Source of the DNA: a virus
Virus record (IMG/VR): IMGVR_UViG_3300043449_001197
Span: 1-38,074 of that record
DNA: 38,074 bases
Direction: 5' to 3' (one strand)
This document shows, piece after piece, positions 3,931 through 38,022 of this stretch. Position numbers and translations under genes: made by a program. The notes beneath the pieces are model-generated. The model was not told where the DNA came from. It searched no databases and saw only the letters and a program-made list of their open reading frames with translations. Each line of letters opens with the position of its first letter. Position 1 is the stretch's first letter.

Positions 3931-4196
3931 TCGACATCCTCCGAGGTTGAGATGGTCTTCAGTTGCTTGGTGAGAGCTTCGATTTCGCGCCGAAGGAACC
4001 TGATTTCAAACGCCATCGATTGCCTCGATTCCGCTGGTCGGTTTTCAGTCTGTTCATCTCGGATCAGTGCCCGGATGTGGTCGCAAAACTCTGCGCTGTA
4101 CAGGGCGGCACGCACCTCGATGCGTGCCGCTTCCCGCGCAAGTTCGACTGCTTGGTTTGCTCGTTCCATGAGTCGGTCGATTTGCTGGGGTTGCAT
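3927..4196 (-). CDS. Helical early protein of unknown function
   Basis: 89 residues if started at the ATG at 4194-4196 (MQPQQIDRLM), which lies just after the stop of the SSB-like gene; a start at 4250 would overlap that gene by 50 bp and is less likely. Long amphipathic helices (IDRLMERANQAVELAREAARIEV, and a C-terminal FLRREIEALTKQL) suggest an oligomeric coiled-coil protein. No family recognised. Confidence 0.5.
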   Translation of the reverse strand: MQPQQIDRLMERANQAVELAREAARIEVRAALYSAEFCDHIRALIRDEQTENRPAESRQSMAFEIRFLRREIEALTKQLKTISTSEDVE

Positions 4197-4200
4197 ACGA

Positions 4201-4695
4201 TCAGAATGGTACCTCGTCCGGGCCTTCAGCGGCCTTCTCAGCGGCCTCAATCTGCGCGAGGATTGCTGGGTTGAGTTGTTTGCGCCCCCGTGACGAATCC
4301 ATTGGGCGAGTTCGCACAGCGACTCCCTCTGTTCCGTCCTGTTTGCGGTACGTCTCGGTGTAGACTGCGAAACAAATCTCAGCCCCGTCCATTTTCCTCA
4401 CGAATGCGATGAAGTTCTGCGTGTCTGTGAAGTCCAACTCAACACCGTCTGCGGCGTACTTTTCGCCCTTTGGGTCGATGGCCGCGAGAAGGTTGTTTAA
4501 CTTCCACCACATCTTCTCGGAGTTGATGTAATCGTCGACCACCTTCCCCGAGGTCGTGACGAACTCGAGTTTGATCTTCGTGTCGCCCTTTGGCGTGCAC
4601 TCTATTTCACGCGGGAACTGAATCGTCCCCTTGTAGATGCCGGGAGTGCGGATGAACTGACCTTCGCCAGCCTTTCGATTGATGATAAATGCCAT
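4201..4695 (-). CDS. Single-stranded DNA-binding protein (DUF669-like)
   Basis: 164 residues. The N-terminal two-thirds read as alternating beta strands (YKGTIQFPREIECTPKGD and similar), compatible with an OB-type fold. The C-terminus is a flexible Ala/Glu-rich linker ending GPDEVPF, much like the acidic tip of bacterial SSB (DDDIPF) that recruits partner enzymes. It is directly downstream of a RecT-like gene, the usual place for a phage SSB. Likely role: coating ssDNA for annealing and replication. Assignment rests on context, fold pattern and tail. Confidence 0.65.
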   Translation of the reverse strand: MAFIINRKAGEGQFIRTPGIYKGTIQFPREIECTPKGDTKIKLEFVTTSGKVVDDYINSEKMWWKLNNLLAAIDPKGEKYAADGVELDFTDTQNFIAFVRKMDGAEICFAVYTETYRKQDGTEGVAVRTRPMDSSRGRKQLNPAILAQIEAAEKAAEGPDEVPF

Positions 4696-4698
4696 ACT

Positions 4699-5493
4699 TT
4701 ACTTCGTTGAGATTTTCTTGATGAGAGCTTCGGTGCGGTTGCGGATGTCCTGCTGGACTCGGGTTGACAAACTGGTGAGACGCTCGACCTTGAAGAAAGC
4801 GAGTGCTGCTCCGTAGTGTGCTCCTAAGAGGGTCTTGAACTCGTCCTCGATGTCCTCAATCACCTCTGCCTCGACTGTGGGTGGCGCAACGGGATCGGAA
4901 ACGTCGCTTTTCTGCTCCGTCAAAGCGTCTAGGACAGGCAAGGGCATGGGTCTGTCAGCGATTGGCTGTGCAGCTGCTGGACTGAAGTCCGTGACCTCCT
5001 CTGGCGTATAAACGCCGCTGACAACGTCAGGCGCGAGTAGTCGCACGGCCTCTGAGATGAGACGTGCCGTGAGCATCTGTCTCGGATGCTTGCGGTAGTT
5101 GTCTTTAAGTTCGCCACCTTTCCCGAGCGCAACCCCGCTCGCCACAAGTTCCTGCATAGTCACCTCCATCTCGAGGTCGTTCTCCCGGAACGTCCACCTC
5201 GCCTTGCAGCGTTCGTGGGTTCGAGTGATCCATTGGACGCGCCCCCCGGCTCGCACGTATTTTCCGAGCATCGCATCGCTCTTCATCGAGAGTTTGCCGT
5301 CGAGCAGATGGTATGTGGCCGTCACCTCGAACGGTGTCAGACCACTTGCGAGGCATTGGAGGGCGAGGATTTGACCCTGAGCGGGTTTGGTGCATCCGAA
5401 CATCCCCGACGAAGCAAACGCCTCGCCGAGTTGCATCGCCGCCCCTACGGGGTCGGCAACGCTGCTGAATAGTGTCATCGTTTTGTTTTCCAT
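4699..5493 (-). CDS. RecT-like single-strand annealing protein
   Basis: 264 residues. Residues about 20-165 match the RecT-type recombinase pattern: GQILALQCLASGLTPFEVTA, then LDGKLSMKSDAMLGKY and a RAGGRVQW segment, and later RKHPRQMLTARLISEAVRLL. The remainder is a low-complexity acidic linker and a helical tail. RecT-family proteins anneal complementary ssDNA during phage recombination. It is followed by the SSB-like gene and preceded by a RuvC-like resolvase, giving a recombination module. No partner exonuclease is recognisable. Confidence 0.8.
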   Translation of the reverse strand: MENKTMTLFSSVADPVGAAMQLGEAFASSGMFGCTKPAQGQILALQCLASGLTPFEVTATYHLLDGKLSMKSDAMLGKYVRAGGRVQWITRTHERCKARWTFRENDLEMEVTMQELVASGVALGKGGELKDNYRKHPRQMLTARLISEAVRLLAPDVVSGVYTPEEVTDFSPAAAQPIADRPMPLPVLDALTEQKSDVSDPVAPPTVEAEVIEDIEDEFKTLLGAHYGAALAFFKVERLTSLSTRVQQDIRNRTEALIKKISTK

Positions 5494-5514
5494 TTTCTTG
5501 TCTGTTGTCTGGGT

Positions 5515-5973
5515 TTACTGCCCTTGCGACTGCACTTGAGCCGCGAGGATTAAGACGGCGTCGGCCGTGCTTAAAGTGATCGTGAGACGCGGGAACCTCC
5601 GCTGTGCCTCACCTTTGAGTCGGTTCTTCCAAACGCGTTGCTCTTCGCCCGGGCGTTTCTGGAAGCCGATTGCTTTTTGCCACCGCTTGGGTGGCACCAT
5701 GTAAAGTTCGAAGCCGATAGCCATTGCTGCACCTTGGAGGAACCCGACGTTCCGATGCAACACCGCGAGGCTTGAGTGTCCTGCGCCGAAGATCGCAGTC
5801 GCTGGTTGCTCCATCGCTACCTTCCGCACGCCAGCTGCTGCAAGGTTCCGTAGTGCGATCAGGATGTCGCCGTCGGTTTGCGGCATCTTCTGGCATCTGA
5901 AGTCATCACCATCATGCCAAGCGATTCCCCCGTTCACCCCCGGGTCTACAGCTAACCATTCCCAAGGTTTCAT
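5515..5973 (-). CDS. RuvC-like Holliday junction resolvase
   Basis: 152 residues with the RNase H-fold resolvase layout. The first strand is LAVDPGVNGGIA with D10, the second acidic residue is E55 in VAMEQP, and the third is D138 in STADAVLIL near the C-terminus. The middle VPPKRWQKAIGF element is typical of phage RuvC-type enzymes. It should cut four-way junctions and branched DNA before packaging. Encoded with RecT- and SSB-like proteins; overlaps the upstream zinc-finger gene by 4 bp. Confidence 0.85.
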   Translation of the reverse strand: MKPWEWLAVDPGVNGGIAWHDGDDFRCQKMPQTDGDILIALRNLAAAGVRKVAMEQPATAIFGAGHSSLAVLHRNVGFLQGAAMAIGFELYMVPPKRWQKAIGFQKRPGEEQRVWKNRLKGEAQRRFPRLTITLSTADAVLILAAQVQSQGQ

Positions 5974-6203
5974 CGTGTCCTCCTTCTCTTAGGTTGAGGC
6001 CGTGGAGGTGAGCAGGAGACGCAGAAGCGTCTCCCCTGTTTCTTGTCGCACGGTTCACCACAGCGGCGGCATCTAACCGCCGGACGAAGGAGAATGTCCA
6101 CGAACCGACTTTTAAGGAGGAGGTGCTTCCCGCTCTGAAGCGATGAGGCGATGTCCTCTCGATTCTCGGAGATCAGCAGCAAGATTGGTCGAAGGTCGTT
6201 CAT
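5970..6203 (-). CDS. Small zinc-finger protein
   Basis: 77 residues. Two cysteine pairs, CRRC and CVSC, flank a short basic turn at about residues 45-64, the signature of a small zinc ribbon; one additional Cys lies between. The C-terminus (PRPQPKRRRTR) is strongly basic, suggesting nucleic-acid binding. It sits between the RuvC-like gene and a membrane micropeptide gene, with 4-bp overlaps on both sides. Function unknown. Confidence 0.6.
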   Translation of the reverse strand: MNDLRPILLLISENREDIASSLQSGKHLLLKSRFVDILLRPAVRCRRCGEPCDKKQGRRFCVSCSPPRPQPKRRRTR

Positions 6204-6376
6204 CGTTGTTGTTTGTTGTGCTCCTCAGCGAGTGCTGCAAAAGCGACTGCATAGGTGAGGATCAGCAACATACCAGCTGCTGCCTGTAGCAACGGACAGT
6301 CTCCCAGTTGGCTAACGGCTACAGCATCCCCGGTGGCCAGCAGTAGGGAGGCAATGGCGATTTGGTTGTGTGTCAT
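6200..6376 (-). CDS. 58-residue membrane protein
   Basis: The ATG at 6374-6376 opens a frame whose stop (6200-6202) overlaps the next gene's ATG. The product starts MTHNQIAIASLLLATG and has two hydrophobic stretches, about residues 5-20 and 31-50, then a polar tail (EEHNKQQR). It fits a small inner-membrane protein in the early operon. Function unknown. Confidence 0.55.
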   Translation of the reverse strand: MTHNQIAIASLLLATGDAVAVSQLGDCPLLQAAAGMLLILTYAVAFAALAEEHNKQQR

Positions 6377-6382
6377 ACTCGA

Positions 6383-6727
6383 TCAAATGTTGCAGACGAT
6401 GACGCCACCATCAAATGTCAGCACCTGAGTCTTGCCTTGGATGAACTCAAGGGCGCACTCCTCTTTCGCCTCTTCCTCATCCTCGCCGCTGAGATCGTCG
6501 TCATTCAGCCAAATCCATCTCCAATCTTCAGCGGCTTCGACCGCCGACGAGTATTCAGTCCACTCGCAACGGATGGCGACGACATCCAGTTCTTGTTCTT
6601 CACCGCAGTCCTCTTCGTACGCCTCAAGAAACTCGACCAACGCTCTTGCGCCGTTGTAACTCCACGAACTGAACGGGTCGTCGAGGAGGATGTTGATTGC
6701 TTGTGCTTTGGTAAGGGTCTGTTTCAT
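6383..6727 (-). CDS. Highly acidic conserved protein, possible DNA mimic
   Basis: 114 residues with about 28 Asp/Glu against about 7 Lys/Arg, net charge near -21. The sequence (TKAQAINILLDD, SYNGARALVEFLE, VAIRCEW, FDGGVIV at the end) resembles a conserved phage/plasmid protein seen near antirestriction genes. The charge profile fits a DNA-mimic inhibitor, but that is inference. The leader is CCTCACAAAA directly before ATG, with no Shine-Dalgarno sequence. Confidence 0.6.
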   Translation of the reverse strand: MKQTLTKAQAINILLDDPFSSWSYNGARALVEFLEAYEEDCGEEQELDVVAIRCEWTEYSSAVEAAEDWRWIWLNDDDLSGEDEEEAKEECALEFIQGKTQVLTFDGGVIVCNI

Positions 6728-6966
6728 TTTTGTGAGGTGTTACGGATCATCGAACGCACGATGAGGTTGACAGTCGACTCGACCGCTTCAGTTGTGGTCA
6801 TCGGCACGCATGGCGTGAGAGCTTCCTCAGCCTCGCTGACCGCTTCGTCGAATGAAGGAGCTTCACCTTCGCCCCGGGCATTGGACCATCTGAACCAACC
6901 GACCGTATAGGGCGATGGCCAGATGTTGCTGATTCCGTTTTGGTGTCTGTATTGTGTTGAGGTCAT
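6724..6966 (-). CDS. Early protein of unknown function
   Basis: 80 residues, not recognised. Aromatic-rich N-terminal half (IWPSPYTVGWFRWSN) followed by an acidic helix and a Val/Ile-rich C-terminus. Its leader CAACCTCAC before ATG matches that of the two neighbouring genes. Overlaps the acidic-protein gene by 4 bp. Confidence 0.5.
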   Translation of the reverse strand: MTSTQYRHQNGISNIWPSPYTVGWFRWSNARGEGEAPSFDEAVSEAEEALTPCVPMTTTEAVESTVNLIVRSMIRNTSQK

Positions 6967-6990
6967 GTGAGGTTGTTTTGGGGTTTGGGG

Positions 6991-7254
6991 TTAGACGGGG
7001 AGCACATCTGTAAGGCGTGCGGAGGGAACGGGTTTCCCGGTCTTCTCAAACCTAATGTGCGCCTTGTACTTGTGGCCCTTGCGTGTTTGAAGACTGCGTC
7101 CCCAGCCGCAATAGGTTGCACGGACCAACTCGCCATCGAGCGTTCCGACGAATCCGGCGTGGCCGAAAGTTTCCTTTCGGATTTTTAAGTGAATGTAAGT
7201 GTGCCCATAGCGGCGGGTTGCGCGGACGTAGGGGAGGAGGTTGATAATGTTCAT
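6991..7254 (-). CDS. Small basic protein of unknown function
   Basis: 87 residues, basic, predicted beta-rich (GHTYIHLKIRKETFGHAGFV). No family recognised. Preceded by the same CCTCACAAAAATG leader as the gene starting at 6727. Two compact hairpins lie just upstream at 7290-7322. Confidence 0.5.
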   Translation of the reverse strand: MNIINLLPYVRATRRYGHTYIHLKIRKETFGHAGFVGTLDGELVRATYCGWGRSLQTRKGHKYKAHIRFEKTGKPVPSARLTDVLPV

Positions 7255-7289
7255 TTTTGTGAGGTTAGTTTGATTGACGGTCTCGTCAG

Positions 7290-7322
7290 CACCCGCATCA
7301 CGGGTGGACCGGGTCGCCCCGG
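7290..7322 (-). promoter_or_regulatory. Tandem hairpins in an intergenic leader
   Basis: On the minus strand CCGGG-GCGA-CCCGG (7309-7322), a GNRA tetraloop hairpin, is followed by CACCCG-TGATG-CGGGTG (7290-7306). Neither is followed by a T-run, so they look like RNA stability or processing structures rather than terminators. They occupy the only noncoding gap between the genes at 7330-7521 and 6991-7254. Confidence 0.45.
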
Positions 7323-7329
7323 TTTCGAC

Positions 7330-7521
7330 CTAGTAAGCGGCAAGAACTGCCACGGGAAGAGCGAGTTCCCCCCGGCGCATCTGGTAGGGGTGGTTTGGAT
7401 TTACTTCTTTCAGCTGCGCATAGCATTCGCCGTCAATCGTGCGGAAACTGAGGATTGCGAAGACTGCCTTTGTGTTTGCTGCTGTCACGATTTGACCGAC
7501 TGAGAGTGAGTTGGTGTTCAT
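7330..7521 (-). CDS. Small protein of unknown function
   Basis: 63 residues from the ATG at 7519-7521. A longer frame to 7608 would run through the C/G hairpin at 7551-7570 and into the upstream gene, and is rejected. The product looks like a small beta-barrel (SVGQIVTAANTKAVFAILSF... with YAQLKEV). Function not recognised. Confidence 0.5.
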   Translation of the reverse strand: MNTNSLSVGQIVTAANTKAVFAILSFRTIDGECYAQLKEVNPNHPYQMRRGELALPVAVLAAY

Positions 7522-7550
7522 TAGTGTTGGGGTTTGGTTTGGTTTGGTTG

Positions 7551-7570
7551 TGCCCCCCGTGAGGGGGGCA
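7551..7570. repeat. Perfect 8-bp G/C hairpin between early genes
   Basis: TGCCCCCC, a 4-base loop and GGGGGGCA form a perfect stem between the stop of 7578-8000 and the start of 7330-7521. On the minus strand it is followed by an AACCA-repeat leader, not a T-run. It may insulate or stabilise the downstream message. Confidence 0.5.
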
Positions 7571-7577
7571 GTGAGTG

Positions 7578-8000
7578 TTACTTGGCCGCCTCTTGCTTGG
7601 CCTCCCAATATTCTTTGCCCAAGTCATCATTGGGAATCGGGTTAGCCAACGCATCCGCAGTCAGTGCGTCATTCAACGCCCATTGCAAACTCAAATCCCC
7701 TGCCACCGCTTGTTTGAGGGCTAATTGCACCCACTCCTCCAAGGATGCCAGCGCCCAAAAGACGGACTTTTCTGCGAAATTGATCTCGTCGGGTGTGCCG
7801 GTCTGACGAACCAGATGGAGTTGAGCGACTGCCTCGGCGTGGTTCGCTTCAGCAGTGAGGATGCCTTGGTGTAACTGCTCGGGGGTCCATTGCAGATCGC
7901 CAGCGTTCTGTTGGTACAGCGCTTTGACAATGGTGCGCACTGTATCGAGGGTCCAGTTGGCAGGGAATGAGGATGAGGTGTTGATCTTTGTAGTCTTCAT
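7578..8000 (-). CDS. First gene of the early operon, unknown function
   Basis: 140 residues from the ATG at 7998-8000 (MKTTKINTSSSF). Helical throughout, with repeated Trp and Leu; PNDDLGKEYWEAKQEAA at the C-terminus. A GTG-started extension to 8165 would begin inside the terminator hairpin and through an A-tract, giving an unlike, very basic N-terminus, and is rejected. As the promoter-proximal early gene it may act in host takeover; no family recognised. Confidence 0.6.
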   Translation of the reverse strand: MKTTKINTSSSFPANWTLDTVRTIVKALYQQNAGDLQWTPEQLHQGILTAEANHAEAVAQLHLVRQTGTPDEINFAEKSVFWALASLEEWVQLALKQAVAGDLSLQWALNDALTADALANPIPNDDLGKEYWEAKQEAAK

Positions 8001-8081
8001 TGTCTTGGAGTTGTTGTTCGTCTCAGGCAACCGCGCCCTCAACTGAAACCAAGTAAACCACAGGAGCGAATCCCTGTACAC

Positions 8082-8100
8082 GCTTTTTTTTACTTTTTTT
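8082..8100 (-). promoter_or_regulatory. A-tract element upstream of the early operon
   Basis: On the minus strand two runs of A's separated by GT (AAAAAAAGTAAAAAAAA) lie about 85 bp before the first early gene. Such tracts bend DNA and act as UP elements near promoters. No good -35/-10 pair was found immediately downstream, so the assignment is tentative. Confidence 0.3.
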
Positions 8101-8141
8101 GCAGTCGTGCCGAACTGCTTTTGTTTCAAGCGTTTAGAAAC

Positions 8142-12489: not shown

Positions 12490-13230
12490 TTAAGCTGCTC
12501 TTGTGTACTTGTCTGTGGTGCCCGGGCGAAGGTAAGTGCCTCCCTCGGGACGTGTGAAAGTGTAGGTTGTCGTGCCACCGCCACCACCGCCTGTTGTCGG
12601 CATCACCAGCATGGCGTCCCACTTGGTCGAATCGGTTGGCACCTCGGAACCCGAAACCGACTTGCGAACGTAGCACCCAATCGTCTGCGCGGTGGTGTCC
12701 TCGTACCGAACAACTTGGCCAACGGTGTAGACGGTGCTCGCAGAGTAAACCCCGACGAATACAAACGAAGTCCCTGCGGCACCAGGATCACCAGCTGGTC
12801 CCTGCGGCCCCTGCGCCCCAGACGCCCCCGATGGCCCTGCGACGCCTCCCGACGCGACAAGGACGTTGATGCGTTCGTTCAAAAACGGTGCGACGAGGAA
12901 GGTGATGACGCCGCTTGTCACAACGTAATCGATTCCAGCCGACTGCATCACCCCGCCGACCGAGACGATGAAGTGTGCATCGGTCGAATCGGTCGAGCTT
13001 GTCTCGAACACGGTTTGCGACCCTGTGCCCGTGAAACCGAACTGCGTAAGCGCAAACGAACCACTCCCGCCGATGCTCGTAGGCTTGTCCGTGAGGTCGT
13101 TGTAGCTGCCCGTATTGGCGACGGTCGCGAGTCCGAGGGAGGTTCTGGCCGCTGCTGCGTTGGTCGCTGAAATGAGGCTTTTACCGACCGCCGTCGCGTC
13201 TTTAAGCAGCTGGTTGGAAACTCGCTTCAT
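12490..13230 (-). CDS. Short collagen-like tail fibre protein
   Basis: 246 residues from the ATG at 13228-13230 (MKRVSNQLLKDATAVGKSL). The N-terminal module is shared with the gene at 9868-10986. The middle module (HFIVSVGGVMQSAGIDYVV then ITFLVAPFLNERINVLVASGG) is shared with the collagen-like protein at 14416-15798. A short GPSGASGAQGPQGPAGDPGA collagen stretch follows, then a beta-rich carbohydrate-binding-like segment with YSASTVYTVGQVVRY. Likely trimeric fibre; its start overlaps the glycosyltransferase stop. Confidence 0.7.
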   Translation of the reverse strand: MKRVSNQLLKDATAVGKSLISATNAAAARTSLGLATVANTGSYNDLTDKPTSIGGSGSFALTQFGFTGTGSQTVFETSSTDSTDAHFIVSVGGVMQSAGIDYVVTSGVITFLVAPFLNERINVLVASGGVAGPSGASGAQGPQGPAGDPGAAGTSFVFVGVYSASTVYTVGQVVRYEDTTAQTIGCYVRKSVSGSEVPTDSTKWDAMLVMPTTGGGGGGTTTYTFTRPEGGTYLRPGTTDKYTRAA

Positions 13231-14384
13231 ACCATTGTGCTGCTCGTCAAATGCGAGAAGTCGAGACCGAGTCCTGTGATCCACGGTTTCGGCTCCCCGT
13301 ACCATCCCGCGCCAAACTTGGTCTCTGCGAAATCATCGAACGCTCGCAGAAACTTGGGACGCACGGCGTCGAGCGAGAAGTTGGCCCGTGCGAAACGCAC
13401 CATTGCCGAGCGGTCGATGCGGTCCACGTTGGCTATCCCTCGCAGGATGTCGCGCATTGAGAGGCATCGGAACCCATTGACTCCATCGACGATGTACTCC
13501 GTCATCGCGCCGAAGTCGCTAACGATGGGGACGCACCCCGAGAGCATCATCTCAACTGCCGTCCCTCCGAACGGCTCCCAGTATTGGGAGAGAAGAAAGC
13601 CGAACCTCGCGCGACCCATCAACTCGCGCCGCTGCTCGATACCAACGCACCCAACAAACTCAACGTGATCAGGCCACTCCTTGAGACCAAACGCATCTGG
13701 TCCACCTTGTCCCGCGACCTTCAGCTTGATGCCCATGCGCTTGCAAGCGTCCATCGCAACGTGGAGACCTTTGTTGACCCCGATGCGCCCGATGTAGAGC
13801 GCATAATCTTCACGCGGCAAAGAGTCGTCGAAGTCGGCCAGATTGAAATAGTTCGGAACCACGCGCCACGACCATTGCGGCTTGCAGTGAGAGACTCGGT
13901 CGGTGCCGTAATGCGCGGCCAGAAGCGGGTAGGATTCGTAACAGCGGAATGGCGCGAATGCGTGACCGTTGCCGATGCCGGGTTCAACGACGACCAAGTC
14001 GTTGTCCTTGTTTGCGGCGAAAGTTGCTTCAGCGGTCCCGCCCCAAAACGCGAGGACGAAGTCCCCCTTCTGCTTGGTCTGCAAAATCGCATCCCCCGCC
14101 ACCAAGTTGTAGACGCGGTGCGACAAGTCCGAACTCGAGAACTTGAACTGGTTTTTGCGCCAGTCGAAATCGCCGTAAGTCTGCTGGTGGATTTCGCGAG
14201 TGATGACGTTGACGTGTTCGTGCGCAGCAGTTTGCGAGTCTGGGTGACCGTAGTGGACCGTGCGGAAGTCCTTGGAGTCTTTGAACATCTCCAAGAACTT
14301 CAAGACCTTCTGCGTGAAAGCGCACGCTGAGTATTCTGGATGCGTTACGGTGTGAGGGACAGCAAGGCAATGCAACGTAGTCAT
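13227..14384 (-). CDS. GT4-family glycosyltransferase
   Basis: 385 residues, a two-domain GT-B enzyme. The C-terminal domain has YIGRIGVNKGLHVAMDA (197-213) and the retaining-GT E-x7-E motif E270-PFGGTAV-E278, followed by SGCVPIVSDFGAMTEYIVDG, which fits the sugar-nucleotide site. Transfers a sugar from an NDP-sugar to an unknown acceptor in the cytoplasm. It is embedded between two collagen-like fibre genes and overlaps one of them, so a fibre protein is the simplest acceptor; DNA or a host glycan are alternatives. Confidence 0.85.
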   Translation of the reverse strand: MTTLHCLAVPHTVTHPEYSACAFTQKVLKFLEMFKDSKDFRTVHYGHPDSQTAAHEHVNVITREIHQQTYGDFDWRKNQFKFSSSDLSHRVYNLVAGDAILQTKQKGDFVLAFWGGTAEATFAANKDNDLVVVEPGIGNGHAFAPFRCYESYPLLAAHYGTDRVSHCKPQWSWRVVPNYFNLADFDDSLPREDYALYIGRIGVNKGLHVAMDACKRMGIKLKVAGQGGPDAFGLKEWPDHVEFVGCVGIEQRRELMGRARFGFLLSQYWEPFGGTAVEMMLSGCVPIVSDFGAMTEYIVDGVNGFRCLSMRDILRGIANVDRIDRSAMVRFARANFSLDAVRPKFLRAFDDFAETKFGAGWYGEPKPWITGLGLDFSHLTSSTMV

Positions 14385-31769: not shown

Positions 31770-32005
31770 CGAAAGGATGCGCGGACGCGGTTGCGCGGGG
31801 TTGTCCTCGACCGCTCGCGGAGGACGGTCGAACACGCGGCCAACTCCATCGCGATCTGCTGACGATCGCGCTGAGAGGATGTCCCCGCCGATGATACCGA
31901 GGTGTACGGGTCCGCGAACTCGGCTTGCAGACGCGCGAGTGCCTCCGAAAGTTGAGTGTCGGTGAAGGAGCGGAAAATACCGATGTAATCGACGGTGTCG
32001 GCCAT
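31766..32005 (-). CDS. gpW-like head-tail joining protein
   Basis: 79 residues from the ATG at 32003-32005, coupled to the terminase stop by ATGA. Helix-strand-helix layout (TDTQLSEALARLQAEF, YTSVSSAGTSSQRDR, QQIAMELAACSTVLRE) with the same position as lambda W, between large terminase and portal. Assignment is by position, size and layout. Confidence 0.7.
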   Translation of the reverse strand: MADTVDYIGIFRSFTDTQLSEALARLQAEFADPYTSVSSAGTSSQRDRQQIAMELAACSTVLRERSRTTPRNRVRASFR

Positions 32006-33747
32006 CACTCGTTTGGTTCTTCATCAACCGTCACGGCTGAACTTCCGAGGATTTTGGTCGCGAGTGCGGCGAGCAGCTGGAGCACCTCGCAATCGAACAG
32101 GTGGTTGTCTTTGCGGATTTGTCTCCAGAAATACGTCACCGCCCCGCGAGCATCGACCCGCTCTTCACGGCGTTCAGCAGTCAGCTGCGAGATGTAGTTT
32201 TGCGCTACGGATTTCGAGAACTCCCATTTGGGGCCATTGCCTGAGATTAGGTGTGCCAACGCATCTTTGAGCAACGGGTTTGAAAATACGATGAGGATCA
32301 CATACTTTTTCTCGCCTCGACCGACCATCGCATCTGCTCGCGAATACATAAACGGCTGGCGAACGTTCCCAACCATGTAGCCTGTAGAGTCGTGGCCTTT
32401 GGTGGCTTTCCATTGGCCTCCGTTTTTGATCACCGATGCATAAACGGACTGCGTGTTGTACCCGGAATCGATCAGGACGTCTCCTTTCCTCACATTGTAT
32501 CTGTCGGCGATGGTTGCGAGTTCATCGATGTCATTAACCTGTCCGTATTCAATCAACCGAGAATCTCCTCCCGTGAACCATTCGCGCACAACAAACCAAA
32601 CACTGTTCTGCTGAACGTCGGCAGAGATAAAAACACGACCGCCATTCACCTTTCCGAGTTCGTAATCGGTTGCGGTCGATTCGCTGATGAGATTCGAGGT
32701 GTTCTCCTGTAGCAAATCGACCCACGGTTCACCCATTGTCTCGGTGCGCCACATCTTCATCGGCATGAAGTTTCCGAACGACATCTGCCTCTTTGCGGTC
32801 AGGAACTCCTCGACGATGGCCTTCCACGCAATCCACGGGGGGATGATTGCCGACCATGTGAAGGACACCTTGTGTTTCGGGGCGCGTGGATTTTGCGGAA
32901 CCCATTCGGCCGTCTTGATTAACCGCTTGCGCACGATGGGAGTGTCAGCATGAGCATGGTTGCAGTTTGGACACATCAAACGGATAGTGTCTGCAAGCGT
33001 GTCAAAGAACCATCGGCCGTCTAAGTGCGTGCGCTCAGAATCCTCCCACGTTAAGTCTTCCCATTTTGGGAACCACGGTTCGCCACACGCGACGCACTTC
33101 CAGCGGAGCTTGTTCTGAGACCCTTCCAGGAACGACTGATGCACGATGTCGTTCTCGTTGGATGGCGTTGAGATGAGCACGGTTTTTGACGACCATTGGC
33201 CGCGCGTCCTTTTCCGAACCGTATCAAGTGCGCCCGGCGGGTAGTTGCGAACCTCGTCGAGGAAAAGCCACCGAATCGGAACCGACTGCAACTTTGCTGG
33301 TGATCCTGCACCTCGCACAAATAGCGGCATCGGGGCAAAGTCGATTGTCATCTTGCGTAACCCTTCACGCTTCTTCGGCATCATCCTTGCAATCGGAGGA
33401 CACCGCTCGATGGTCGGGAACAAGCGTGTTTCCATGAAGTCCTCCGCGTCGGCTTGGTTTGCCATCACCCACATCGTCGGAGCAGGGTCTTCAGCAATGA
33501 TCCACGCCAGCGCGACTAACAACGCTTGTGTCTTCCCTGATTGGGCAGCACACATCACCGAGATTTCGGAAACCTCTGGATTGGCAAATGCCTCAAGGAT
33601 TTCCTTCGTCCACGGTGCTGTATCGGCTCGGTATCGGCCCGGGGCGATGGTCGACATCTTGTCGACCCACACATTGTCCTCGGCCCATTCCCACGGTTGT
33701 CGATAGTCCCGATGCGCGAAGATTTCAGCGAGCGTTTCAAAAAACAT
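32005..33747 (-). CDS. Terminase large subunit, GpA-like
   Basis: 580 residues from the ATG at 33745-33747, one base after the upstream stop; an in-frame ATG at 33780 is possible. Walker A-type CAAQSGKTQ (about 66-74), Walker B-type IRWLFLDEVRNYPPG, a zinc-binding pair CVACGEPW/CPNCNHAH, and a C-terminal nuclease domain starting VFISADVQQNSVW with later acidic residues (DVLIDSG). It pumps DNA into proheads and cuts the concatemer at cos-type sites with the small subunit. Confidence 0.9.
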   Translation of the reverse strand: MFFETLAEIFAHRDYRQPWEWAEDNVWVDKMSTIAPGRYRADTAPWTKEILEAFANPEVSEISVMCAAQSGKTQALLVALAWIIAEDPAPTMWVMANQADAEDFMETRLFPTIERCPPIARMMPKKREGLRKMTIDFAPMPLFVRGAGSPAKLQSVPIRWLFLDEVRNYPPGALDTVRKRTRGQWSSKTVLISTPSNENDIVHQSFLEGSQNKLRWKCVACGEPWFPKWEDLTWEDSERTHLDGRWFFDTLADTIRLMCPNCNHAHADTPIVRKRLIKTAEWVPQNPRAPKHKVSFTWSAIIPPWIAWKAIVEEFLTAKRQMSFGNFMPMKMWRTETMGEPWVDLLQENTSNLISESTATDYELGKVNGGRVFISADVQQNSVWFVVREWFTGGDSRLIEYGQVNDIDELATIADRYNVRKGDVLIDSGYNTQSVYASVIKNGGQWKATKGHDSTGYMVGNVRQPFMYSRADAMVGRGEKKYVILIVFSNPLLKDALAHLISGNGPKWEFSKSVAQNYISQLTAERREERVDARGAVTYFWRQIRKDNHLFDCEVLQLLAALATKILGSSAVTVDEEPNE

Positions 33748-33748
33748 C

Positions 33749-34393
33749 TCAGCCCTCGATGATCCATCCCGCAAAGTCACCGAAGCGAAAGATTTCAGTC
33801 GCTGGATTCAGCTCAGAAACTTTCAACGGCCGTTGAACGCCACTCAGAGAGAGTTCTTTCGCAATGATTTCATCTGAACAAACTCCCGAAGAGACTTTCC
33901 CTGCAAGCGCAAGCCTCCATAAGACTGTTGCAACGTAACCGCTTGAGGCTTCGCACTTGTCGAACACAAGCAATGCCCCTCCCGGTCTTATCTGTGAACG
34001 GAGTCGAGCAATCAACCCTTCCCTCTCGGAAGGACAGATAAACATCAGGGTCAAAAAGCAAACTGCCAAATCGAATGGTTTGAAGTCGAATGCTTCAGCG
34101 TCAGCGATGCATAAAGTCCCCGGGCCTTTGTACAACGCTGCCATCTGCTTTGAGTTCTCAATCGCAATGAACTCGGCGTTTCGTTCACTTAGAGTTTGCT
34201 GCAAAGCACGCCCTACATTCCCTGTGCTCGCCCCGATGTCATACACCCTTCCGTTGTTTGGGATGTAGTGTCGCGCAACATGGGCGATGACATTCGTGGT
34301 CAAGTCGTACCACGGCAACTGCTCACGCACATGGTTGTCAAACCCTTGCGCGATTTGATCTGACTTAAATGACCAGTTATCAGGTATTTCCAT
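33749..34393 (-). CDS. CmoA-like carboxy-SAM synthase candidate
   Basis: 214 residues, class I SAM fold. It tracks E. coli CmoA along its length: N-terminal W-SFKSDQIAQGFDNHV, then PWYDL, motif I VYDIGASTG (50-58), AIENSKQM (78-84), CPSEREGLIARL (120-131), RPGGALLVFDKCE (136-148), and a final strand FRFGDFAGWIIEG. CmoA converts SAM plus prephenate into carboxy-SAM. The protein is about 30 residues shorter than CmoA, mostly in the C-terminal third, so the prephenate-binding Arg could not be placed with confidence. No CmoB-like gene is present. Sits between the amidotransferase and large terminase; the likely user of its product is the C5-MTase at 35752. Otherwise a plain methyltransferase. Confidence 0.75.
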   Translation of the reverse strand: MEIPDNWSFKSDQIAQGFDNHVREQLPWYDLTTNVIAHVARHYIPNNGRVYDIGASTGNVGRALQQTLSERNAEFIAIENSKQMAALYKGPGTLCIADAEAFDFKPFDLAVCFLTLMFICPSEREGLIARLRSQIRPGGALLVFDKCEASSGYVATVLWRLALAGKVSSGVCSDEIIAKELSLSGVQRPLKVSELNPATEIFRFGDFAGWIIEG

Positions 34394-35764
34394 TTAATCT
34401 TTTGGGAGGTATCCAAACATCCGTTTCATTTCGGCGTTGTAGTATCGAATCGGATTTGCGATTTGCCGAGCGATCGCATCACTCACTCCGCTCCCGCCTT
34501 GAAAGGTGTCTTTGGCGCGTTTGATGATCCACTTCGGCAGCACGCTTTCTGCCGCCTTTTTGAGCAACACCTTTCCAGCAGGTGAATCATGTTTGCCAAG
34601 TTGGATGACAGATTCAACGAGACCTTGCTCCATGAAGGGAAGCCGACATTCAACGCCAGCAGACATGAATGCCTTGTTGCACCGAACAAAGTTCCCCCGT
34701 GCCATCTTTGCCAAACTCTCTCGCCTGAGTTGTTTCACTTCACTTTCTGATGCTGAAGCAGCTTTGATGCAAAACGTTCCGTACCCCCCAAACAGTTCAT
34801 CAGCGGCCTCCCCTGACAGACACGCTTTGAACCCTCGGCGTGAAATCTCCCGCGCAAGCGGAAGGCATAGCACCGCGATTTCAATCTGGGCTTTGGATGC
34901 GATCTCAATGCTGTGCATCGCTTCTTGAATCGCCTTTGCGTCGAAAGTGATTGGAACCTCCACCAATGCAACCCCGAGTTCAGCGCATAATCGTCGCGCA
35001 CTTTTAGCGTCTTCTGAGTGCTTATCGAACACCGCAGTGAATGCGGTCAAATCGGACGAGTGCTCTCGCGCAAGAGAGAGGATCAAACTGCTGTCGAGAC
35101 CACCTGAGATCAGGCAGCAAACAGGAGCATCTGCGGTCATCCGCTTTGCAACTCCACTCTTGAGTTGAGAGAGAACTTCAGAGGATGAAATGCCTTTGGC
35201 ATTTGGAAGCGTGTACCATTTGTGCCACTTCGCAGACTGGAAGTGAAATGCGTGCCCAGCTGGAACCGAAACTGGGTTCATGCCTTTAGGGAATGCTTTC
35301 CGTTCGCTCGCCCAGTAGAAACATGAACCAACCTTTGCGACATAGAGTGGAACCTTTCCGAACGAATCCCTCGCCAGCCACGTCTGCCCCTCCTTGTCAG
35401 TCCACGCAAACGCGAACATCCCATCCAACTTGTTCAGAGCGCAAAGGATTCCGTGCCGCTCAAGCAGAGCGCACAGCACTTCTGTGTCCCCGGTTGTCTT
35501 GAAGACAAGACCTTCGCTCTCAAGTTCCCTCCTCAGTTCTTTGAAGTTCCAAATCTCACCATTGAACGAGAGGCACGACGACCTTCCGATGAAAGGCTGA
35601 GATGACGCATCGCTCAAATCGACGAGAGCGAGTCTAACGTGCCCATGAACAGCCCTGTCTGCCTGATGCAGTCCAATCCCATCGGGGCCACGGTGCTCGA
35701 TGCGTTTGAGCATCCCCTGTGTCTCCTTTGCAAGTCCTCCGAATGTCCCTGCTATTCCGCACAT
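34394..35764 (-). CDS. Asparagine-synthetase-like glutamine amidotransferase
   Basis: 456 residues, both AsnB domains present. Glutaminase: nucleophile Cys2 after Met removal (MCGIAG), RGPDG (25-29), FNGEIWN (67-73), GDTEV (92-96). Synthetase: PP-loop SGGLDSS (220-226), LSGEAADELFGGY (316-328), and RANKAM-like FVRCNKAFMSAGVECRLPF. It should activate a carboxylate with ATP and transfer glutamine ammonia to form an amide. By my alignment the acceptor-binding T322/T323/R325 of E. coli AsnB are replaced by A292/Q293/E295, hinting that free aspartate is not the substrate. Shorter than AsnB (554). Overlaps the C5-MTase by 13 bp and abuts the CmoA-like gene. Confidence 0.85.
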   Translation of the reverse strand: MCGIAGTFGGLAKETQGMLKRIEHRGPDGIGLHQADRAVHGHVRLALVDLSDASSQPFIGRSSCLSFNGEIWNFKELRRELESEGLVFKTTGDTEVLCALLERHGILCALNKLDGMFAFAWTDKEGQTWLARDSFGKVPLYVAKVGSCFYWASERKAFPKGMNPVSVPAGHAFHFQSAKWHKWYTLPNAKGISSSEVLSQLKSGVAKRMTADAPVCCLISGGLDSSLILSLAREHSSDLTAFTAVFDKHSEDAKSARRLCAELGVALVEVPITFDAKAIQEAMHSIEIASKAQIEIAVLCLPLAREISRRGFKACLSGEAADELFGGYGTFCIKAASASESEVKQLRRESLAKMARGNFVRCNKAFMSAGVECRLPFMEQGLVESVIQLGKHDSPAGKVLLKKAAESVLPKWIIKRAKDTFQGGSGVSDAIARQIANPIRYYNAEMKRMFGYLPKD

Positions 35765-36888
35765 GGTTTTGCCAGAATCTTGTCACGCACCGTCGCGGCG
35801 ATTTGGGCCATCATCACAGGAGGAACCGCACGCCCGAGTCGCTCCCATTTCTGGGCATAGGTGCCTGTCAAAATGAAATCATCTGGGAATCCGCAGATGC
35901 GTTTGAGTTCACCAATGGTGAACTTCCTTTTCTCGAATGGATGCACAACCGATGCGATCCCCGCACTCCCATGGCTTGCGCAAATGGTAGGGACAGGCTT
36001 ATCGGGGTGAGCTTTTACGAGGTTGAAATAACGGTCGCTTTGTTCTCCGGGTTTCAAAGTCTCCCATTCCTTCCCGGTGCAATACCGCGAAATGTCAGTT
36101 TCCTTTTCAACAAACAGATGCGGTGTTGTTGTTACAGTGCAGCTTGGACGGTCTGTGATTTCACCAACTGAGAACTGGCCCGATGTGTCATGAACCGCTT
36201 TCGCAATCCACGGGACAGCATCCCGCACGGTGTAGCGATAAGGAAGCGGAGTTGGATGCGTTGGAGCGATTTTCAAGTCATTCCGTACTCCGATAAAGAT
36301 GGTCCTCTGCCTTGCTTGCGGAACACCTAGCCACTGCGCATCAAGCACCTTGCAGGACACTTGGTATCCGCATGATTTGAGTTCACGAAGGATTTCAAGA
36401 AAGTAACCCTTTGCAGTTCCCTTCACCAATCCTGAGACATTCTCCGCAACAAAAGTCTTCGGCTGAGTGCCACGAATCAGTCGGGAGAACTCAAAGAAGA
36501 GATCATCGGTGCGTTGAGCTTTGTCGCTGTACTTCTTCACCTTGCCCCATCCTGCCTCGCGCTTCCCTGCGGTTGAAAAGGAAGCGCACGGAGGAGACCC
36601 ATCAAACAGGTCAATGTCACCGACACCCATGCCTGTAGCATTCAGAATGTCCTCGGGTTTGACGTTCCTGATGTCTCTACCGTCAACGACTGTGTATGGG
36701 GCGCAGTTTGCTTTATAGCAATCCCGTGCTGCATCGATGAACTCAGATGCCCACAACAATCGGAACCCGGCCATGCGGTAGCCTGTCGATGACCCTCCGC
36801 ATCCTGAGAATGTCGAAACTGCGTTGAGTCCATTCCACGGAAGAGACCGAATCTCGTCCATGCTTGGAACACGGTACGGCGGCTTCAT
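35752..36888 (-). CDS. Cytosine-C5 DNA methyltransferase with motif X Asn-to-Arg change
   Basis: 378 residues with all C5-MTase motifs: I STFSGCGGSSTGYRMAGF (25-42), IV GSPPC with catalytic Cys101, VI FVAENVSG (146-153), VIII QARQRTIFIGVR (191-202), IX about 297-340, X ERLGRAVPPVMM (349-360). Motif X is normally GNxV(PP); here Asn is Arg353 (codon CGT at 35830-35832). The motif X Asn lies by the methyl-donor pocket, and a basic residue there in an engineered enzyme enabled carboxy-SAM use. With the neighbouring CmoA-like protein, the donor is predicted to be carboxy-SAM. The target-recognition region is short (about 205-295). Starts 4 bp inside the ParB-like stop. Confidence 0.9.
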   Translation of the reverse strand: MKPPYRVPSMDEIRSLPWNGLNAVSTFSGCGGSSTGYRMAGFRLLWASEFIDAARDCYKANCAPYTVVDGRDIRNVKPEDILNATGMGVGDIDLFDGSPPCASFSTAGKREAGWGKVKKYSDKAQRTDDLFFEFSRLIRGTQPKTFVAENVSGLVKGTAKGYFLEILRELKSCGYQVSCKVLDAQWLGVPQARQRTIFIGVRNDLKIAPTHPTPLPYRYTVRDAVPWIAKAVHDTSGQFSVGEITDRPSCTVTTTPHLFVEKETDISRYCTGKEWETLKPGEQSDRYFNLVKAHPDKPVPTICASHGSAGIASVVHPFEKRKFTIGELKRICGFPDDFILTGTYAQKWERLGRAVPPVMMAQIAATVRDKILAKPCAE

Positions 36889-37394
36889 TCAGCTGGTTCG
36901 CTTCCTCCGCTCCCTCCGCTCCACCTGTAACCGCATTTCGGGCATTGATGTTCGGTCTCAATGCTTTCGTCGTATGACTCAAAGTCTGCTGGCGAATCGG
37001 TTGTGTCCTCAGAAAGTAGTTTTGCAAAATCCTCCTCCGAAAACCCCGTGAGTAGGTGGTCAAGGTCGCTTTCTTTGACGGCCTCGAGTTCGACCTTGAG
37101 CATCTCGTCATCCCATCCTCCTCCCAGTTCAGAGAGTTTGTTGTCGGCCAAGATGTATGCTCGGCGTTGGATGTCAGTCAGGTGCGTCAGTCGAATCACG
37201 GGGATTGACTCCAGACCGAGTTTGATTGCTGCCATCACTCGCCCATGCCCAGCGATGATCCCGTTCGACTGGTCAATGAGGACAGGGTTGTTGAACCCAA
37301 ACTCACGAATGGACCCGGCGATTTGAAGCACCTGTTGCTCGTCGTGCCTCTTGGCGTTCCTTGCGTATGGGATGAGATCAGCTGGGCTGATCAT
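36885..37394 (-). CDS. ParB/sulfiredoxin-fold protein, possible nuclease
   Basis: 169 residues from the ATG at 37392-37394 (MISPADLIPYARNAKRHDEQ), right where the ParB N-terminal domain begins; an ATG at 37455-37457 would overlap the small terminase by 80 bp. The domain shows QVLQIAGSIREFGFNNPVLI, then the GHGRVMAA motif that binds nucleotide/phosphate, and DIQRRAYILADNKLSELGG. C-terminus acidic with one CPKCGYRW knuckle. ParB-like phage proteins are often next to DNA methyltransferases and can be NTPases or nucleases; the role here is unproven. Confidence 0.8.
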   Translation of the reverse strand: MISPADLIPYARNAKRHDEQQVLQIAGSIREFGFNNPVLIDQSNGIIAGHGRVMAAIKLGLESIPVIRLTHLTDIQRRAYILADNKLSELGGGWDDEMLKVELEAVKESDLDHLLTGFSEEDFAKLLSEDTTDSPADFESYDESIETEHQCPKCGYRWSGGSGGSEPAE

Positions 37395-38022
37395 TTCGAC
37401 TTCCCGAGTTGCTTTCCTTTCGGGCGCACTCGCTCGCCCATCTTTCAATTTCGACATAGGTATCACGGATTGCGCGCGTGATTTCCCCTGCGATCTCAGC
37501 AGGTTCCATCCCGGAAACTCGGTGCGCGATTGCCGGGCCAATCCTTAACTGAAGCCTCCTCGCTACGTCAAAGGTTTCGTAAAGTTTCATGCGAACGTCA
37601 TCGATGTGCATCACTTCACCTCTCATCCGTTGCAGTTCGATTTCGAGCTTTTGGTTCTTTAGCCACACTTGCCGGGCCATCTGCCTCGACCTGTCAATCT
37701 CCTGCCCATCCTCAGCCTTTGAACCATGCGACTCGACCCATTCACGCCATTGCTCGATTGGGTAAAACCCTGACGCATTTGCAGCTGGTGCGCCCTTCTT
37801 GAGCCAGAGCTTGATCGCTGGGCGAGTGACTCCAAACATCGTCGCCAACTCCTGCATGGATTTGGCCCACGTTGTCGCCTTGTCATCTTGGCCGCTGAAG
37901 TAGTTTTCGACCTGCTGCAGCTGCGCTCGCGTGAGTGCCTTCCCCGACTTCTGCCGCTCGAGGAGGAGTCGGATGTTTTGCGCGGCCACCTTGTCGACCA
38001 CGGTCTCTTTGCCATTACTCAT
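37378..38022 (-). CDS. Terminase small subunit, Nu1-like
   Basis: 214 residues. A winged-HTH region at about 54-80 (SMQELATMFGVTRPAIKLWL) followed by YPIEQWREWVESHG, then a long helical oligomerisation region (RQMARQVWLKNQKLEIELQR). The order HTH - linker - QKLEIELQRMRGEV matches Nu1-type small terminases that bind cos. The ATG lies 52 bp inside the right end of the window and follows the leader AACTTAACAAAA with no SD sequence. Confidence 0.85.
   Translation of the reverse strand: MSNGKETVVDKVAAQNIRLLLERQKSGKALTRAQLQQVENYFSGQDDKATTWAKSMQELATMFGVTRPAIKLWLKKGAPAANASGFYPIEQWREWVESHGSKAEDGQEIDRSRQMARQVWLKNQKLEIELQRMRGEVMHIDDVRMKLYETFDVARRLQLRIGPAIAHRVSGMEPAEIAGEITRAIRDTYVEIERWASECARKESNSGSRNDQPS

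Follow-up and report, generated by a model that had tools for sequence, protein, structure and literature searches.

A described cytosine hypermodification system and its counterpart in the window

The closest described system to the locus considered here is that of Synechococcus phage S-B43 (Yang et al., Nat Commun, 7 December 2025; PMC12783734), in which CmoA makes carboxy-S-adenosylmethionine (carboxy-SAM), CmoX uses carboxy-SAM only, and not S-adenosylmethionine (SAM), to form 5-carboxymethylcytosine (5cxmC) at GC sites, and the ligase CmoY couples glycine to 5cxmC. Virion DNA of S-B43 contains the glycine amide and no free 5cxmC, and DNA carrying 5cxmC is resistant to HhaI (PMC12783734). 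In E. coli BL21, Yang et al. showed, carboxy-SAM is provided by the CmoA of the host. The same authors listed 5,615 CmoX candidates, often accompanied by CmoA, a ligase and a ParB-N protein, which they selected by an SPPC catalytic motif and an arginine at the position of R350 in the S-B43 enzyme (SpCmoX; structure 8YF3), the residue that holds the carboxy-SAM carboxylate. A glutamine-hydrolysing domain is present in the second largest of their ligase clusters, for which ammonia was suggested as substrate; soluble enzyme was not obtained (PMC12783734). Here we describe three genes in IMG/VR virus record IMGVR_UViG_3300043449_001197, whose positions 1 to 38,074 we refer to as the window, and we think it quite probable that they form a CmoA–CmoX–CmoY cassette for the hypermodification of phage DNA, ending in glutamine-dependent amidation to 5-carbamoylmethylcytosine.

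The three genes are intact open reading frames on the minus strand between positions 33749 and 36888. They encode, in order, a predicted CmoX-type DNA cytosine C5-carboxymethyltransferase with the C5-methyltransferase fold (35752–36888, 378 aa; PF00145, E = 7.7e-56), a predicted CmoY of the glutaminase-bearing type (34394–35764, 456 aa) and a predicted CmoA-type carboxy-SAM synthase of the phage branch (33749–34393, 214 aa). As read from the sequence, the first two genes share 13 bp, and the cmoY stop codon adjoins the cmoA start. A preliminary description of this DNA had recognized overlapping or abutting genes for a cytosine C5-methyltransferase, an AsnB-like protein and a CmoA-like protein, and had noticed a basic residue at the donor-pocket position of motif X; all three genes prove intact with matching domain assignments, and the residue is real, being R353, which aligns with SpCmoX R350. 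Its statement that no phage system with this trio was established is out of date, since a publication of December 2025 describes the trio, with a glutaminase-type ligase among its forms. The window trio is therefore a member of the published system and not a new one, and on its sequence the ligase is of the glutaminase-bearing cluster type of Yang et al.; what is left over is one step with a clear mass prediction and a residue signature.

Predicted carboxymethyl transfer and carboxy-SAM synthesis

The closest solved structure to the window methyltransferase is SpCmoX itself (8YF3; E = 3.4e-65, 38% identity). Both features of the published rule are found in the protein: the SPPC nucleophile of motif IV, here SPPCASF, and an arginine, R353 within WERLGRAVPP, at the SpCmoX R350 position, which is that of N304 in HhaI. 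The expected cmoA neighbor is also present, at 33749–34393. We surveyed motif X in 152 distinct methyltransferases from related and control loci, scoring cmoA within the stretch fetched around each gene. The arginine occurred together with a nearby cmoA in 129 of the 152, and three had the arginine and no cmoA in the fetched stretch; two of these, L097 and L168, are at the edge of a contig, and the third is that of Erwinia phage SNUABM_5, in which cmoA is 17 kb away. None of the 19 methyltransferases with N, M, L or I at this position had cmoA in the fetched stretch, and a single non-arginine (Gly) enzyme, from an SPbeta-like phage, did.

This last locus, L140 (Staphylococcus phage SPbeta-like, KT429160), has at 3989–5688 a cmoA immediately followed by an HhaI-like C5-methyltransferase with glycine at the carboxylate-binding position of motif X. 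Either carboxy-SAM is held in another way in this exception to the CmoX rule, or cmoA is put to a different use. Two further loci, L169 and L170, encode CmoX-like methyltransferases (WERLGNSVPP) in which asparagine replaces the arginine and near which there is no cmoA, and these may be reversions to plain methylation. In Methylophilales phage Melnitz (4010–5227), a methyltransferase 38% identical to SpCmoX has leucine in motif X and no adjoining cmoA, with RimK-like ATP-grasp genes close by.

The predicted model of the window CmoA is nearest to E. coli CmoA (4GEK; TM score 0.85), and the protein matches PHROG 4752 with E = 1.9e-50. Identity to the S-B43 enzyme, SpCmoA, is only 21%. In alignment and model, the SAM-site residues Y29, D52, G54, S56 and D145 correspond to Y39, D62, G64, S66 and E/D164 of the E. 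coli protein, which places the window protein in the putative phage CmoA branch.

The glutaminase-bearing ligase

The window CmoY combines GATase_6/7 and Asn_synthase domains, that is, an N-terminal nucleophile (Ntn) glutaminase followed by an AMP-forming amide ligase in the AsnB fold. Its predicted model has a mean predicted local distance difference test score (pLDDT) of 92.5, and the nearest fold is E. coli AsnB (1CT9; Z 45.0, root-mean-square deviation 2.1, 443 aligned residues), followed by human ASNS, the hydroxyamidotransferase TsnB9 (7YLZ, Z 40.8) and beta-lactam synthetases. We examined residues across 56 distinct CmoY sequences of the glutaminase type. The glutaminase residues C2, R44, G69, E70 and D93 are invariant in all of them and N68 is present in 52; in the window these six match Cys1, R49, N74, G75, E76 and D98 of AsnB, so that the glutaminase site is complete. 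Cys2 comes right after the initiator methionine, as Ntn hydrolases require. The PP-loop is likewise present in the window protein (S220-G-G-L-D-S225), and S220, G221 and D224 together with E319, D322 and K418 are invariant in the 56 sequences; the gene thus places an AMP-forming PP-loop ligase domain beside cmoX and cmoA.

The acceptor side of the active site is different. T322, T323, R325 and D385 of E. coli AsnB are replaced by A292, Q293, E295 and N358 in 56 of 56 sequences, so these proteins do not have these four aspartate-pocket residues of asparagine synthetase B. The first three are presumably involved in aspartate activation, to judge from older mutagenesis. In place of the aspartate-pocket residues, these CmoYs have a KAQ(I/V)E signature, and E. 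coli AsnB has neither its lysine nor its glutamate. Of the CmoYs of the S-B43 (glycine) type, 31 of 32 have a corresponding stretch, KKTHFEC or a variant of it, with K and E as the only common residues, a pattern that appears in about 8–9% of shuffled sequences; a separate BLAST alignment pairs the two stretches. KAQ(I/V)E was not found in GATase-bearing AsnB paralogues of viruses and of a Calditrichota bin that are unlinked to cmoX and cmoA. We infer that the stretch may read 5cxmC in DNA, the acceptor common to both CmoY types, which would differ in their amine. Yang et al. were not found to make this point in their main text (PMC12783734). The window CmoY passes the general asn_synth_AEB cut-off (TIGR01536), and generic family models annotate DNA-linked CmoY and ordinary asparagine synthetases alike; the residue signature described here sets the two apart.

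Gene linkage and exchange of the ligase

When viral contigs were retrieved by the methyltransferase alone, a cmoA homologue lay in the fetched stretch of 78 of 80, and when they were retrieved by the ligase both partners were found in 55 of 60. All exceptions were due to a contig end or to the order A-X-Y, as in a near relative, and linkage is complete wherever contig ends permit testing. The preliminary description had proposed searching for other genomes with the trio adjacent, and these counts answer that the association is not one of chance. The usual order is ParB-CmoX-(CmoY)-CmoA, with ParB adjoining CmoX in nearly all related loci.

The ligase is the variable member. Among the 80 loci found by the methyltransferase, 22 have a glutaminase-type ligase, nine have one of the S-B43 type, and in 49 none was recognized nearby by profiles. 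On the CmoX tree there are at least 25 changes of ligase state, so the ligase is a module that is frequently exchanged or dropped. An alignment-based genome scan for CmoY with two short patterns returned three loci only and is not a census. Compared with a relative whose proteins are 91–92% identical, each of the three window genes shows nonsynonymous divergence (dN) of 0.05–0.07 and synonymous divergence (dS) of 0.9–1.4, giving dN/dS of about 0.05; such strong purifying selection indicates that each gene, the ligase included, is kept functional.

Several individual loci illustrate the variety of arrangements. The close relatives L068, L071, L078 and L079 have ParB-CmoX-CmoA-TerL without CmoY and amount to natural knock-outs of the proposed amidation step. 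Moraxella phage Mcat8 likewise has CmoX and CmoA, and no ligase was recognized near them. Pseudomonas phage PaBG, which infects P. aeruginosa PAO1, has ParB-CmoX-CmoA, a hypothetical gene and a glycine-type ligase at 4174–8137. On plasmid p7 of Azospirillum argentinense, an IS256 transposase lies between ParB-CmoX and a homologue of CmoA that scores 324 bits against the profile, perhaps in a decayed prophage.

Proposed pathway and alternative explanations

For homologues it has been demonstrated that carboxy-SAM is made, that cytosine is carboxymethylated at C5, that the other CmoY type ligates glycine and that DNA containing 5cxmC withstands HhaI. By analogy, the window proteins would carry out the same first two steps: CmoA would convert SAM and prephenate to carboxy-SAM, and CmoX would flip out a cytosine and, with the carboxylate of the donor held by Arg353, carboxymethylate it at C5 to give 5-carboxymethylcytosine. 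The preliminary description had drawn this same route, which is now supported by the biochemistry of the S-B43 homologues (PMC12783734) and by the diagnostic residues present in the window. The whole of the third step, with ammonia as amine and DNA as acceptor, is what the ligase residues lead us to propose. The N-terminal domain of CmoY would hydrolyze glutamine and release ammonia, the carboxymethyl group would be activated with ATP as an acyl-AMP, and attack by ammonia would yield 5-carbamoylmethylcytosine; sites so modified would resist host nucleases. This amidation fits both the suggestion of Yang et al. for this ligase type and every residue we examined, and the predicted product has a mass shift of +57.0215 (m/z 285.119). 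Calculated [M+H]+ values for the alternatives are 286.103 for the deoxynucleoside of 5cxmC, 343.125 for its glycine amide and 301.114 for a hydroxamate (+73.016), and the 13C peak of the carbamoylmethyl product (286.123) would fall 0.019 from that of the 5cxmC deoxynucleoside. We consider it likely that the cassette makes 5-carbamoylmethylcytosine by means of a glutamine-dependent amidotransferase working on polymeric DNA, a second CmoY branch whose product would be the DNA counterpart of the 5-carbamoylmethyl group (ncm5) of tRNA wobble uridines. In the literature searched, which took in no preprints and few subscription papers, 5-carbamoylmethylcytosine was not reported and the 5-carbamoylmethyl group was found on tRNA uridine only.

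Several observations weigh against this interpretation. For glutaminase-type CmoYs the product is a prediction only, and the 49 of 80 CmoX loci at which no ligase was recognized nearby mean that amidation is optional. In human ASNS, D400 is one of the residues that surround the amino group of the substrate (PMC6748925); E. coli AsnB D385 aligns with it, and CmoY retains two of three such ASNS residues (E and D), so that a partial AsnB-like pocket persists. The best NCBIfam match of the window CmoA, TIGR00740 (E = 8e-19), scores 68.2 bits where the curated cut-off is 193.3. The biochemically proven SpCmoA also falls under that cut-off, at 115.6 bits, and the cut-off is therefore no criterion for carboxy-SAM synthesis. 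In E. coli CmoA, Arg199 makes a salt bridge to the carboxy-SAM carboxylate (PMC3663124), and its position is occupied by E180 in the window protein and by Glu in SpCmoA as well, so that the mark of a cellular-type CmoA is missing. Eight positions after the Arg199 site lies R188, a position occupied by arginine or lysine in 91 of 94 phage CmoA proteins, and the CmoAs of PaBG and SNUABM_5 keep R199 and have Val at the R188 position; from these alignments R188 looks like a relocated carboxylate ligand that may stand in for R199. Finally, the association of the motif X arginine with cmoA reduces on the tree to only three or four independent changes, all in the expected direction, and it falls short of significance given kinship because the independent contrasts number only three or four pairs. 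The co-occurrence supports the CmoX rule in the sequences surveyed without giving statistical proof.

The identity of the amine is the main uncertainty, and ammonia is most likely on the strength of the complete CmoY glutaminase. It is unlikely, in our judgment, that the same cassette adds a different nitrogen group, either a hydroxamate formed with a glutamine-derived hydroxylamine donor or the amide of some other small amine. TsnB9 (7YLZ, Z 40.8) and beta-lactam synthetases do use this scaffold for other acyl substrates and nucleophiles, but the CmoY glutaminase site is complete and conserved in the 56 sequences. Beta-lactam synthetase has lost its glutaminase site. Yang et al. report ligase clusters with distinct active sites in addition to the glycine-using CmoY, which would leave room for another amine; for a hydroxamate, however, no hydroxylamine-making gene was recognized among the cassette genes or the scanned reading frames of the window.

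We give still less credence to a scheme in which modification stops at free 5cxmC and CmoY amidates some other substrate, for instance as a phage asparagine synthetase. The overall AsnB fold, the TIGR01536 match and the many close relatives that carry CmoX and CmoA without a nearby ligase would all agree with it, yet the TTxR residues and D385 of the aspartate pocket are replaced in 56 of 56 sequences by a signature that recurs in the DNA-acting SpCmoY, and linkage of the gene to cmoX and cmoA holds in every case that can be tested. Asparagine synthesis as auxiliary metabolism was rejected on these grounds, the pocket residues being replaced in every member and the gene tracking cmoX and cmoA. 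It is very improbable that the methyltransferase is an ordinary 5-methylcytosine enzyme standing by accident beside a CmoA homologue that serves the wobble modification of host tRNA (uridine 5-oxyacetic acid, cmo5U). Its fold and motifs are those of common C5-methyltransferases and the classical role of CmoA is in tRNA, but R353 stands in place of Asn, SpCmoX accepts carboxy-SAM and not SAM, and cmoA is linked in 78 of 80 contigs with the remainder cut short. CmoB was not found in the window and the tRNA pathway was rejected for that reason, as was plain cytosine methylation in view of the motif X arginine and the complete linkage.

Should amidation by CmoY be true, phages would shield their DNA by capping cytosine with an acetamide that is small and neutral, placed there by an amidotransferase that works on DNA. 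On one and the same CmoX tree the ligase would be a swappable module of glycine type, glutaminase type or none, a ready series for matching side groups to the host nucleases that they defeat, and the enzymes would offer a tool to place amides on chosen cytosines.

Genomic context of the cassette

The trio is flanked by a ParB-like gene on one side and the large terminase gene on the other, all on the minus strand. The ParB-N domain protein, a member of the cassette, is encoded at 36885–37541 (PF02195 below cut-off; PHROG 620, E = 6e-54), with its true start probably at ATG 37394. Directly downstream of cmoA is the large terminase subunit (32005–33780; PHROG 15, E = 2.7e-92), which probably starts at ATG 33747, and upstream, beyond the ParB gene, is a probable small terminase subunit (37378–38022, minus strand) with a weak match to PF07278/DUF1441 (E = 0.0024, below cut-off). 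The remainder of the 38 kb encodes head, tail, primase and RecT genes, and the window is therefore a contig of a tailed phage. A Group 1 glycosyltransferase (13227–14384; PHROG 3408, PF00534) lies amid tail fibre genes, and a fibre or surface glycan is a more likely target for it than DNA.

Comparison with known systems

The S-B43 system shares with the window a homologous CmoX (38% identity, with the same arginine and SPPC motif), a CmoA homologue and an adjoining AMP-forming ligase of the AsnB family. It differs in that its ligase lacks the glutaminase domain and joins glycine, and its gene order is cmoA-cmoY-cmoX with no ParB gene alongside. The glutaminase-bearing CmoY cluster represented by A0A7T0Q3R0, compared by its published description, has the same domain plan beside cmoX and cmoA and the same predicted use of glutamine-derived ammonia, and by that description no difference in kind from the window CmoY was found. 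E. coli AsnB (1CT9) resembles the window CmoY in its two-domain fold and in its glutaminase and ATP residues; its T322, T323, R325 and D385 are those replaced in CmoY, and the C-terminal part of CmoY is shorter. The pathway to 5-carbamoyloxymethylcytosine (MetaGPA, eLife 2021; PMC8670742) also places a neutral nitrogen-containing group on C5 of phage cytosine, but does so from 5-hydroxymethylcytosine by a carbamoyltransferase, and the group is a carbamate and not an acetamide.

The same gene order as in the window, ParB-CmoX-glutaminase CmoY-CmoA, occurs in Streptomyces phage TurkishDelight (genes 122–125) and at chromosomal loci of Streptomyces NRRL S-455 and CCM_MD2014, one of which has a phage terminase adjoining. 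These loci share the motif X arginine of CmoX and a KAQVE signature with the window; their CmoY is 37% identical to that of the window and, unlike the window, they belong to actinobacterial hosts available in culture, so that TurkishDelight and the two Streptomyces chromosomes provide cultured material for analysis of the product.

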